From a virus: a stretch of DNA of 38,401 nt. The stretch spans positions 1 through 38,401 of the IMG/VR virus record IMGVR_UViG_3300019776_000579. One strand, given 5' to 3'. The position numbers and the translations under genes were made by a program. The notes under the pieces are model-generated. The model did not search any database. It was not told the origin of the DNA and worked only from the letters and a program-made list of their open reading frames with translations. This document shows, piece after piece, positions 2,261 through 4,799 of this stretch (within the stretch, counting starts at the first letter, position 1; every line of letters begins with the position of its first letter).

Positions 2261-2559
2261 GGCAATACGCACACAAGCGATACAGCGCAGCCCAGCTTGA
2301 CGCGATGGCGGAAGGCAGGGCAGCGAAGCGAATGGAGCAGCCGGAGCGGCCAGCAATACCGGCGCGCTCTCCGGGTGTGCTTGTGCTGGATGTAAACGGG
2401 CAGCGCTTTGACTTAGAGTTGAGGCCGCATCCGAGAGACTGCCGCCGATGGCTTGCGTACCGTGACGGCAAGCCGTTTGAGAGCGGCGGGCTTGAGCGTA
2501 TCTGGCGCAAGGTTCAGGCGGAGCTAGTGCCGCTGCTTGGGGTGCGGAATCTGGCTTAG
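2257..2559 (+). CDS. Hypothetical phage protein, 100 aa
   Basis: ATGA-coupled to the previous gene, with its stop (2557-2559) overlapping the integrase stop on the other strand. The centre carries a beta-hairpin-like segment VLVLDVNGQRFDLEL followed by WLAYRDGKPFESGGLERIWRKV. No known domain is recognised. It is the last gene of the early rightward unit that begins at 35846 and crosses the window ends. Confidence 0.6.
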   Translation: MRQYAHKRYSAAQLDAMAEGRAAKRMEQPERPAIPARSPGVLVLDVNGQRFDLELRPHPRDCRRWLAYRDGKPFESGGLERIWRKVQAELVPLLGVRNLA

Positions 2560-3566
2560 AGCCGCGCTGCTATCTGCGCCTCATCCTCCCGAAAATACGT
2601 CCTGCACAATTGGCCCATGTCCCGATGCCCCAAAATCTTGGCAAGCGTGAGCGGGTCTGTCTTGCGTGCTGTGAGTGTGGCAAACGTGGCGCGGGCATCG
2701 TGAAACGTCAGGCCCGACACACCGGCTGCACGGCTGTAGCGCCTAAACAGTGTGTCGCGGGATTTTTCGGACATGGCCCAGAGTGATCCGTTTTCGCCGC
2801 CCTCACCCTGCATCGCAGCTCTGATGATCTTCGCTGCTCGCTTGTAGATCGGCACCCGGCGAGCACCTACTAGGCGCGAGGTCTTGTGTGATTCGAGCAG
2901 GATCACGCGCCGGTCAAGGTCTATGTCTGAGCGCTTCAGGCCCATGATTTCGCCCGCTCTCATGCCTGTCGTGAGCGCAATCAGGAACATATAGGCTAGC
3001 TCATGAATCGCAGAGCACGGGACTAGGCCAGTCCTGTAATGCATATGACGCAGCACGCGCCGGATGTCCTGCCACTTCCACACAGCCTCACGCGCTCGAT
3101 TCTGCCCAGGCATACGCAAGTTTGACCACGGGTTCTCACCGCACCAGCCCCACTCTTTGCGGCCAACAGTCCACACGTTGCGAAAGAGGTTGATGTCGCG
3201 TTGAACTGATCCGGGTGTGACTTCCTTCAGGCGGGCATCTCTCCAGGCCGCGAGGTCGGAGCTTTTGACCTCTGAGAACTGCATGGCCGTGAGCTTTGGA
3301 AAGTGCCGCTTCAAGGCTTCCATGCGCTTCACTTCCTGAACGCCTGACGACTTGGCCGCGCTGATTTCTAGGGCGTATCGGTCGAGCGCATCCGCAAAGG
3401 TCTTCGCCGGGTATTTGCCGCGCTGGCCCGCCCTGATTGCTGCCTCTTCGGCCTGCGCCCAATACGTCGCCTCAGCCTTTGTCGGTCGTGTCGCGCTTAC
3501 GTCCGGGTGTCCTTTGACCCGCACAATGGCTTGCCAAGTCTTGCCGCGCTTTCGGATATAGGCCAC
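2556..3566 (-). CDS. int: Tyrosine recombinase, phage integrase, 336 aa
   Basis: Catalyses site-specific integration and excision. GTG start at 3566, with GGGAG 7 bases upstream. Layout: N-terminal arm-binding region (MAYIRKRGKTWQAIV, residues 1-60), core-binding helices (60-160), catalytic domain (165-330). The catalytic set is visible: Arg203 in TTGMRAGE, a Lys near 228, His289 and Arg292 in HDARATF, His314 in LGHRDMG and Tyr324 in CRTYF. The length is normal for phage integrases. It is convergent with the early rightward genes. Phased repeats lie just upstream and are candidate arm-binding sites. It lacks the extra domain expected of integron integrases, so it is unlikely to move the attC-like sites. 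Confidence 0.95.
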   Translation of the reverse strand: MAYIRKRGKTWQAIVRVKGHPDVSATRPTKAEATYWAQAEEAAIRAGQRGKYPAKTFADALDRYALEISAAKSSGVQEVKRMEALKRHFPKLTAMQFSEVKSSDLAAWRDARLKEVTPGSVQRDINLFRNVWTVGRKEWGWCGENPWSNLRMPGQNRAREAVWKWQDIRRVLRHMHYRTGLVPCSAIHELAYMFLIALTTGMRAGEIMGLKRSDIDLDRRVILLESHKTSRLVGARRVPIYKRAAKIIRAAMQGEGGENGSLWAMSEKSRDTLFRRYSRAAGVSGLTFHDARATFATLTARKTDPLTLAKILGHRDMGQLCRTYFREDEAQIAARL

Positions 3567-3612
3567 TGTCGCTCCCTTTGTCTCTCTGCTGTCTCAGCGG
3601 GGAGGTGACGAT

Positions 3613-3694
3613 AAGCGACAAGAAGCGGTGTTAAGCGGTGTGACGCTAGGGGTTTTCAGCGGGTAAAAGCGGTGCAAAGCGGTTTAAAGCGGCG
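3613..3694 (+). repeat. Two arrays of AAGCGGTG-type repeats with exact 10-bp period
   Basis: Array 1 starts at 3613, 3623 and 3633 (AAGCGACA, AAGCGGTG, AAGCGGTG). Array 2 starts at 3657, 3667, 3677 and 3687 (CAGCGGGT, AAGCGGTG, AAGCGGTT, AAGCGGCG). Units lie exactly 10 bp apart, one helical turn, so bound proteins would stack on one face. The position 47-128 bp upstream of the integrase start suggests arm-type integrase sites or excisionase sites of attP. Self-regulation of int is another possibility. Confidence 0.7.
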
Positions 3695-3767
3695 TTATGT
3701 ATTAGCGCCCCCGGCAGGAATCAGACTTATAGCGAAAGTGTATGAACGACAGGCACTTAGAACGGCG

Positions 3768-4253
3768 ATTGTGCTTGCTGTCTCTAATTTGTCGCTGCAC
3801 AATAGAAGCTCATCGGGCCAGGACGCTATAGGCGCACCCGTCTGGTGAGGCGTCAGGACCTAACTGATGACCACCCCGGGAAAGTAGCGGGGGCTATCAG
3901 ATCAGCGGCGATGTGGATGGACACAGTGCCGGTTAGCTGCCGGATCGCTTTGGATGACACCGACAAGATCAATCGGTAAACGGAGCCAAAGAGTTACCCG
4001 ACTGACGGGGTCTAGCAGGTATCAAGCCCTGCACGCTGATCTGATGGTGAAAGGGGCGCAGCCTACCCTGCTTATTGTTGCCGACTGGCAGGCAGCAGAG
4101 CCACTATCTAGGCTGCGACAACGCGGCTGGTGCGGGTGTAAGCCCTGACAACCTCCACGGTGCAAGGCCGTGGGCCATCATCGAAGCGGCGGCGTAGATT
4201 GAAACCAGATACGCTTCAGCAGGAAGGGATAGCGCCCTGCCCGCTTCTTCGAT
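3768..4253 (+). ncRNA. Candidate structured non-coding RNA upstream of a tRNA-like element
   Basis: No credible gene lies between the integrase start and 4354. The stretch is dense in long-range complementarity. ATCAGATCAGCG (3896-3907) pairs with CGCTGATCTGAT (4034-4045), closing a domain that holds branches GCGAT/ATCGC (3908/3944), CTTTGG/CCAAAG (3948/3986), ACCGA/TCGGT (3959/3973), CCCG/CGGG (3997/4006) and GCAGG/CCTGC (4015/4028). A second domain has GCAGCCTA (4058-4065) with TAGGCTGC (4109-4116) and inner CTGCT/AGCAG. A hairpin CCACGG/CCGTGG follows (4155/4168). A third domain is CCATCATCGAAG (4175-4186) with CTTCGATGATGG (4247-4258). A possible promoter is TTGCTG (3775) and CACAAT (3798), 17 bp apart. 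I recognise no known RNA family. Confidence 0.6.
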
Positions 4254-4349
4254 GATGGTGTAGCTCAGCGGATAGAGCACGCAAGGCATTGCGTAGGCAG
4301 ACCGGCGACGGATATTGCCGATTGCGCCGGTTCAAGTCCGGCCACCATC
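4254..4349 (+). tRNA. tRNA-like element with long variable arm and abnormal anticodon arm
   Basis: A cloverleaf is clear: acceptor GATGGTG (4254-4260) pairs perfectly with CACCATC (4343-4349); U8 and A9 are in place; the D-arm is GCTC/GAGC with loop AGCGGATA; the T-arm is GCCGG/CCGGC with loop TTCAAGT. The variable arm CGGCGA/TTGCCG (4303-4308 with 4315-4320) is long. The anticodon arm instead forms ACGCAA/TTGCGT closing on GGCA (4279-4294). A 7-nt loop with U33 cannot be drawn; the alternatives are a 6-nt or 8-nt loop. No CCA is encoded. It is therefore probably not a decoding tRNA, but it could be recognised by RNase P and RNase Z. A host tRNA captured at an attachment site is an alternative. 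Confidence 0.55.
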
Positions 4350-4353
4350 TTCA

Positions 4354-4542
4354 ATGCAAAGTCAGCACACAATGAAGCAGCCAACCCGCAGAGGCCCCAA
4401 GCCCAAGAGCCCGACCGGCCAGCCGATGAAGCGCCGGGTGATCCGCATGTGTGACGCAGATTGGGCAGCGGCTAAGGCAATCGGCGATGATCGGACGCGG
4501 GAGTTGATCCGCGAAGAGGCGAAGAAGAAGGAGAGCGTATGA
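4354..4542 (+). CDS. Small basic protein, 62 aa, paralogue of the gene at 26512
   Basis: The first in-frame ATG after the tRNA-like element is 4354 (another is 4372); neither has a Shine-Dalgarno sequence. The protein has a basic Gly-Pro-Lys start (RRGPKPKSPTGQPMKRR) and a helix ending RTRELIREEA. The minus-strand gene at 26512-26796 shares this layout (GxKPKxPxGxPMK, then DRxRxLxRxEA), so the two are probably paralogues. The basic stretch suggests DNA or RNA binding. It starts only 5 bases after the tRNA-like 3' end, so processing there would leave an almost leaderless message. Confidence 0.6.
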   Translation: MQSQHTMKQPTRRGPKPKSPTGQPMKRRVIRMCDADWAAAKAIGDDRTRELIREEAKKKESV

Positions 4543-4799
4543 CGCACGAACTAGGGCCGCTGCCTGAGCACCACTACGAATGGCGAAACGGTCAGATCGG
4601 TTTCACGCCTGAGCAAATGCGCGCCTACGCACTTGCAGAGGTTGAGAAGGCCGTGAAGGCGGAGCGGGAGCGGTGCAAGCGCATCGTGCAATTCAATCAG
4701 TACCGCTGCGGGCGACACAAACACGATGATGTGACCATCGGTCATTTCAATGTCAGCATGATTTCAGAAATTGATTCAGGTGAGCCGCCAAAGGCTTAA
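4539..4799 (+). CDS. Hypothetical phage protein, 86 aa
   Basis: ATGA overlap with the gene upstream. N-terminal EHHYEWRNGQIGFTPEQMRAY is followed by a helix with the AERERCKRI motif seen in several small proteins here (also in the genes at 423 and 4804). The C-terminal half has scattered Cys and His (C49, C57 region, H60, H62). Function is unknown; it is probably an early accessory protein. Confidence 0.6.
   Translation: MTHELGPLPEHHYEWRNGQIGFTPEQMRAYALAEVEKAVKAERERCKRIVQFNQYRCGRHKHDDVTIGHFNVSMISEIDSGEPPKA

Follow-up and report, generated by a model that had tools for sequence, protein, structure and literature searches.

A real and widespread family of structured RNAs almost certainly exists in phages, and the region beside the integrase gene of the window analysed here, the whole of a 38.4-kb viral contig, appears to encode a noncoding RNA of several domains, at least two of which come from this family. 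The family comprises at least 218 phage loci, and its modules occur in hundreds of phages of proteobacteria and in at least one cyanophage. It is apparently undescribed; the open-access literature searched (subscription papers lay outside the search) holds no published description of it, and there is no Rfam model. The overall reading developed below, namely a multi-domain noncoding RNA with at least two domains of a new phage family, docked elbow-like loops and a trans-acting role as a tRNA mimic, stands at about even in our judgement.

To our knowledge, few classes of structured phage RNA are known, and the best studied, GOLLD and ROOL, are still without a function. Viral contigs contain the module family far more often than would be expected of one missing from Rfam, as three exact-motif scans each gave at least 120 matches.

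The structured region of the window

The integrase gene of the window lies at 2556-3566 on the minus strand, which also carries the terminase, portal and tail genes. A preliminary description, made from the letters of the sequence, had presented the neighbouring DNA as free of genes, and indeed open reading frames of 80 or more amino acids are absent within 3567-4538 on both strands; the conserved open frame that it named as a competing possibility is likewise not borne out, there being no open frame. A sigma-70-like promoter was not found in the window region, and across the modules promoters show no enrichment. The plus strand of 3700-4353 folds at -268.6 kcal/mol, where shuffles average -241.0 with an sd of 7.5 (z -3.7) and 0 of 20 match it; the minus strand reaches z -2.3 against its shuffles.

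Three helices proposed at the outset proved exact in their coordinates and perfect in their pairing when checked directly against the plus-strand sequence. The 12-bp helix joining 3896-3907 (ATCAGATCAGCG) to 4034-4045 (CGCTGATCTGAT) is the closing stem, P1, of module 1; an 8-bp helix joins 4058-4065 (GCAGCCTA) to 4109-4116 (TAGGCTGC); and a second 12-bp helix joins 4175-4186 (CCATCATCGAAG) to 4247-4258 (CTTCGATGATGG). The suggestion that the region belongs to no recognised family also stands, in that Rfam 15 gives only the tRNA family RF00005 at 4254-4350 and leaves the modules without a family.

Two parts of the preliminary description have to be redrawn. It had seen one large multi-branched RNA; a structured RNA is supported, but what the evidence shows is an array of separable domains of ~25-150 nt that also occur solo in other phages, and not a single large architecture. 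It had also set the interval at 3700-4253, whereas the structured part runs from ~3811 or 3868 to 4349 and ~3700-3810 lies outside the RNA. Because these 5′ ~110 nt share 83% identity with the sister phage L004 and adjoin integrase arm-type repeats, they are best assigned to the integrase/attachment region. Clustered repeats of the AAGCGGTG/AAAGCGGT type, probably integrase arm-type sites, lie in 3604-3700 between the integrase and the RNA, and an inverted pair, AGCGACAA/TTGTCGCT, is found at 3614-3621 and 3789-3796.

The integrase of L004 is 93% identical to that of the window, and just one 35-nt hairpin is kept between the two phages within an otherwise rearranged RNA region. When window positions 3570-4560 are compared with L004 positions 1300-2990, identity is ~83-85% on both sides and the RNA region is wholly rearranged between them. 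Relative to the hairpin, the module is upstream in one sister phage and downstream in the other, which suggests domain exchange.

Homologues and census of the family

A BLASTN search of phages and plasmids with the whole region yielded no more than a match of 65 nt to four Pseudomonas syringae phages. This near-empty result arises because only short motifs are conserved, and motif scans were therefore required. The linker hairpin of the window (3868-3892, plus strand; TGACCA-CCCCG-GGAAAGTAG-CGGGG), the one kept in L004, recurs exactly in 30 viral contigs, and in 33 when three of its pairs are left free. Those three free pairs covary: they are 100% paired, and both sides have changed in 14 cells where shuffling gives 2.4. 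A scan of genome contigs for the same hairpin gave mostly chance matches, and the flanking motif was present only in Comamonas testosteroni, Achromobacter marplatensis and Advenella mandrilli.

The flanks of the linker-hairpin loci yielded a second recurrent motif, GCGGCGTGGA-N-GGACACGC, a scan for which gave at least 120 matches. Tens to ~200 nt after nearly every match comes a hairpin of the type GCCGG-TATCAAGC-CCGGC, and directly against it the upstream flank recurs as its reverse complement. An alternative T-like hairpin, GCNGGAGTAGCGCCCNGC, also gave at least 120 matches, and its members carry the D-like loop GAAAGCAGA. Phage records that were examined hold one to three copies. Many copies of the module are standalone units of ~100 nt. 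A loose D-arm pattern run against 301 Comamonas-family genomes produced so many chance matches in this GC-rich DNA that it is not used as evidence.

A covariance model, R1, was built from alignment A3, which contains 44 compact modules and neither the window nor L004. In the window, R1 matches 3901-4040 with 44.5 bits (E 5e-6 over 375 kb; E 1.6e-8 for module 1 in a local search with filters off), while module 2 scores 20.4 bits (E 0.27 over 375 kb, 0.0008 locally). Further held-out matches are those in Acidovorax phage AP1 (71.6 bits), Pseudanabaena phage Pan3 (66.2), Caulobacter phage DMCA (63.4), Iodobacter phage phiPLPE (58.7), a Sinorhizobium plasmid and L004, all the held-out loci except L004 having originally been located via the D-arm motif.

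Module architecture and covariation

The module has a fixed order. A 2-nt linker, usually CG, separates the 5′ strand of the closing stem P1 from a D-arm-like hairpin; an insert comes next, and then a T-arm-like hairpin that ends 0-1 nt before the 3′ strand of P1. P1 varies in sequence and length, up to 20 bp. The D-like stem usually has 5 bp and a 6-nt loop, and the T-like loop usually has 8 nt. All three helices covary, each having been tested with a selection blind to the helix concerned, and the covariation check that the preliminary description had named thus gives a strongly positive answer across homologues.

For P1, circularity was avoided by locating the T-like hairpin by sequence alone in 89 loci and then comparing the 8-nt flanks. 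Of the 8 positions in these flanks 7.53 are paired, where permutation gives 4.36 (at most 4.82 across 200 permutations), and pairing is perfect in 60 of the 89 loci where 2.1 would be expected, with all four Watson-Crick types at most positions. Alignment A3 gives a covariation of 0.553 against 0.116 shuffled, and at most 0.10 with partners slid; its members were picked by P1 pairing, so its percentage paired is high by construction. The D arm, in homologues selected by their T arm, has 4.86 of 5 positions paired against 3.62 permuted (maximum 3.86), and in type II modules 4.88 against 4.40. Around the invariant loop GANGGA, the D-like stem takes the forms GCGTG/CACGC, GCACG/CGTGC, GCGCT/AGCGC, GCGTT/AACGC, GTGTG/CACAC and others. 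G-U pairs outnumber A-C mismatches 27:8 in the pairing-blind set (p 0.002), which marks the plus strand as the RNA.

Some features of P1 and its surroundings were noted in addition. The P1 sequences are non-random, as TTCTGAC(T/G)G, TCAGGACGG, TGGCGGTG, GTTACTAGAGYAAGGG and CCATCATCGAAGCGG recur across otherwise different phages (L072, L083, L096, L121, L144, L312, L313, L325, L359 and others). Across all modules, G is strongly depleted (5-15%) in the positions 1-8 nt past the 3′ strand of P1; on the 5′ side, the flank is A/T-rich.

Loop coupling and inserts

The two hairpin loops of a module are coupled. Among the modules listed that have a recognisable D-like loop, type I modules combine the T-like loop TATCAAGC with the D-like loop GANGGA in 53 cases and no exception, and type II modules combine AGTAGCGC with GAAAGCAGA in 63 cases, again with no exception (53/0 against 0/63; Fisher p 2.5e-34, a figure inflated by relatedness). 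The members so coupled differ widely in P1, D-like stems and inserts. A type III pair, GATTGAAACCAGA with AGGGATAGCGC, is seen in module 2 of the window and in the Orimi phages, between which P1 and the D-like stem show paired changes. The T-like loop variants TATCAAGC, TGTCGAGT and TTTCGAGC fit the T-loop pattern of tRNA (TCRA-purine).

A simple reading of this coupling is that the two loops dock as at the elbow of tRNA, which the sequences make likely. In type I, the GG of GANGGA would contact the UC of UAUCAAGC, and in type II a GC would contact a GC. A three-way junction with kissing hairpins that is unrelated to tRNA would fit the same data.

The insert between the D-like and T-like arms ranges from 4 to ~280 nt. 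In type III it has just 4-8 nt, which places it outside the module core. The score for an a-b-a′-b′ pseudoknot is 22.2 over 92 inserts against 18.0 when shuffled, and 24 of the 92 beat all 8 of their shuffles where 10 would be expected; the excess stems mostly from short inserts, as 11 of the 18 with 62 nt or less do so. Compact inserts are therefore probably pseudoknotted in this manner, a prediction with moderate support. Some inserts contain tRNA or tRNA-like sequence: that of L291 (6825-7010, plus strand) contains a complete tRNA-Pro, and that of L279 (3750-3884, minus strand) a complete tRNA of unassigned type. A tRNA or tRNA-like sequence was also observed between the D-like and T-like arms at L187:3995-4157.

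Domains of the window array

In the window, the array may begin, on the plus strand, with a degenerate domain at 3811-3872 (TCATCGG../..CTGATGA; fold -24 kcal/mol), for which the window copy itself offers weak evidence. L004 has a full module in its place (2603-2743, minus strand, 54.6 bits), immediately upstream of the shared linker hairpin. Module 1, of type I, extends over 3894-4047 on the plus strand and is closed by P1 at 3894-3907/4034-4047. Its identification comes from the match to the held-out covariance model. The D-arm-like hairpin at 3912-3925 (TGTG-GATGGA-CACA) has the conserved GANGGA loop and a stem that covaries among T-arm-selected homologues; the T-arm-like hairpin at 4015-4032 (GCAGG-TATCAAGC-CCTGC), 1 nt before the 3′ strand of P1, also covaries, and its motif is present in at least 120 viral contigs.

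A predicted inter-module domain follows at 4048-4174 (plus strand), delimited by sequence and fold; it holds the 8-bp helix and ends in the hairpin CCACGG-TGCAAGG-CCGTGG at 4155-4173. Module 2, of type III, occupies 4175-4258 on the plus strand, with P1 at 4175-4189/4241-4258, a D-like hairpin at 4192-4214 (loop GATTGAAACCAGA) and a T-like hairpin at 4219-4240 (loop AAGGGATAGCGC). It is 80% identical over 65 nt to the Pseudomonas phages Orimi01 and Orisa01-03, in which P1 (GCAGGTG/CATCTGC) and one pair of the D stem differ from module 2 with pairing kept, a comparison that supports module 2 independently of R1.

The array alternates as CYATC...GATGG...CCATC...GATGG...CACCATC. Each P1 could therefore pair in its outer part to either side, a possible switch. 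The same alternation, and a GATGG..CCATC-bounded domain after the modules, is found in L022, L029, L043, L045 and L006. A further common motif, GCGAGTAGGACCGCAACGAGCGTGCAGCGCC, adjoins arrays at L022 ~1220-1380 and L045 ~1690-1800 and is probably another domain of the same system. Pyrimidine-rich CTCCCTCCCTCTCT tracts come after several arrays (L006 ~7700, L027 ~2740, L186 ~3390 and 4260).

The array ends at 4254-4349 (plus strand) in a tRNA-like element, as the preliminary description had recognised. The element matches RF00005 with 44.4 bits at 4254-4350 and has an acceptor-like helix (4254-4260/4343-4349) and a T arm (4326-4342); its 5′ acceptor strand overlaps P1 of module 2 at 4254-4258. 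ARAGORN calls no tRNA at 4254-4350, and the anticodon arm is non-canonical, with a best local hairpin of 6 bp and a 4-nt loop, not a 5-bp stem and a 7-nt loop. Model R1 gives the element ~20 bits, and its exact 27-nt D-arm/anticodon pattern has 0 matches. The reading of the element as an attP or tRNA remnant is made less likely, but not refuted, by 41 Comamonas-family genomes, which give no long match to the T-arm end and no clear attB-like match, the best matches spanning its tRNA-like 5′ half.

Genomic context and possible function

No gene is conserved beside the modules, as no PHROG is common to more than two of ~95 neighbours on either side. This makes action in trans probable and rules out a riboswitch or leader for a fixed gene. 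Among the modules listed, 19 of 221 have a tRNA within 500 nt (8.6% against 3.6% at random), a modest association overall, and all 19 of these nearby tRNAs lie on the strand of the module. At L099:142-4433, a module stands between tRNA-Leu and tRNA-Lys in an array of 19 tRNAs. The Rfam Burkholderiales-2 RNA (RF02917) was also seen on phage contigs that carry modules, at L027:325-391 and L101:1542-1615, both on the minus strand.

The proposed mechanism starts from the docking of the two loops, which would, with good support from the sequence comparisons, let P1 and the T-like arm stack as an acceptor-like rod. The RNA might then be produced together with phage tRNAs or next to them and act in trans as a mimic of tRNA that lacks CCA. 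Among the known readers of the tRNA elbow are RNase P, the ribosome and T-boxes, besides many proteins (PMC4810234). Such a mimic might engage a host factor that reads the elbow, whether a nuclease (for maturation or decay), an enzyme that binds tRNA or a defence protein that cleaves it. Its role could be that of a decoy, a recruiter or a shield, and P1 and the variable insert would supply a phage-specific function. Taken alone, this function in trans is our best guess, held at somewhat less than even confidence.

A wider reading is slightly more tentative still. The modules may form an autonomous class of phage RNA, in which a three-helix core with exchangeable matched loops would rebuild the elbow without anticodon or CCA and, with interchangeable inserts that include whole tRNAs, provide a general platform for capturing or evading tRNA-directed host and defence machinery. 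If the host does read the module as a tRNA elbow, phages would have a new route into tRNA processing or tRNA-cleaving defence. The module is compact and simple to test, as the two natural loop pairings are ready-made compensatory mutants, and the core motifs let annotators spot hundreds of blank intergenic regions.

Among the other explanations, the one that survives best, although unlikely, is a scaffold or compartment RNA like GOLLD and ROOL, that is, an oligomer, cage or late-infection platform in which the elbow contact would be a folding device and the inserts, some of them tRNAs, cargo. The genomic habit is the same, as GOLLD and ROOL occur in phages and prophages near tRNA islands and their variable linker may hold tRNAs (PMC12286853), and domains recombine freely between the sister phages, as the window and L004 illustrate. 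However, the many standalone copies of ~100 nt are far below the size of GOLLD or ROOL, and there is no sequence or model match: neither covariance model finds one in the window and ~46 related loci at the gathering threshold, nor in the window to E 10, so the preliminary description was correct in assigning the region to neither.

A new ribozyme or orphan aptamer is improbable. Loop nucleotides that are invariant amid hypervariable stems, the probable pseudoknot of compact inserts and the scattered placement without a conserved gene would suit a small invariant core in a pseudoknotted or junction fold; yet the conserved nucleotides lie in two coupled hairpin loops instead of forming an open junction core, the flanks show no constant cleavage site, and there is no match to an Rfam ribozyme. 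Equally improbable is a cis element acting on the transcript, through an exonuclease block, transcription timing or processing of a polycistronic phage mRNA comparable to tRNA punctuation. Modules often begin just a few nt after an upstream stop codon and lie between operons, and nearby tRNAs share the strand, as such an element would have it, but the modules keep no consistent orientation towards their neighbouring genes (54/47 upstream, 59/41 downstream) and intrinsic terminators are not enriched near them.

Far less probable is a DNA-level element, in which the inverted repeats would belong to an attachment, replication or packaging site by the integrase and not to an RNA. The module region adjoins an integrase in Caulobacter phage DMCA as it does in the window, and arm-type repeats flank the window copy; most copies, however, lie away from an integrase, and the one-strand excess of G-U over A-C, the coupled loops and the shared orientation with tRNAs all speak for RNA, as does the lack of a clear attB-like match of the 3′ element in the Comamonas-family genomes. 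The least credible reading, a graveyard of decayed phage tRNA genes with insertions, draws on the tRNA score of the 3′ element and on tRNA-like pieces inside some inserts and is possible for 4254-4349 alone, but it is contradicted for the modules, since hundreds of phages show two alternative matched loop pairs and compensatory change in all three helices, which decay does not produce.

Comparison with known systems

The tRNA-mimic reading can be set against several known RNAs. By its fold, the module comes nearest to tRNA mimics. With GOLLD and ROOL, the modules share their placement in phages, near tRNAs and with some tRNAs within the insert, but they are small and repeatable, occur also solo, and have different conserved sequences. 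With tmRNA, they share a tRNA-like end domain and an inserted pseudoknot-bearing region, but the module has neither tag peptide nor CCA, and its D arm is a full stem; ARAGORN found no tmRNA in the window and 13 loci. Group I and II introns, twister-sister and HDV-like ribozymes were considered for the T-loop-like hairpin and rejected, as Rfam gave no match.

T-loop motifs are found in many RNAs unrelated to tRNA, and here the likeness to tRNA extends to the order acceptor-D-(insert)-T-acceptor, the 2-nt linker from the first stem to the D-like arm, a 5-bp T-like arm that abuts the first stem, the TCRA T-loop-like sequence, the GG in the D-like loop and loops coupled as at the elbow. The differences are a P1 of up to 20 bp without CCA, an insert in place of the anticodon arm, and a T-like loop of usually 8 nt instead of 7; the tRNA model RF00005 does not match module 1 or module 2 even at E 10. 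As the module lacks CCA and its P1 often goes far beyond 7 bp, it is not an aminoacylatable tRNA.

The YrlA bacterial Y RNAs are tRNA mimics without CCA, in which a tRNA-like elbow domain is closed by a long stem. Rfam Y-RNA families give no match to the window at E up to 10 or to six loci at E up to 5, no link to a Ro60 gene stood out near the modules, and the module differs from YrlA in that its tRNA-like part is not permuted and its P1 is hypervariable; it nevertheless shares with YrlA the lack of CCA, the elbow-like domain and the long closing stem.
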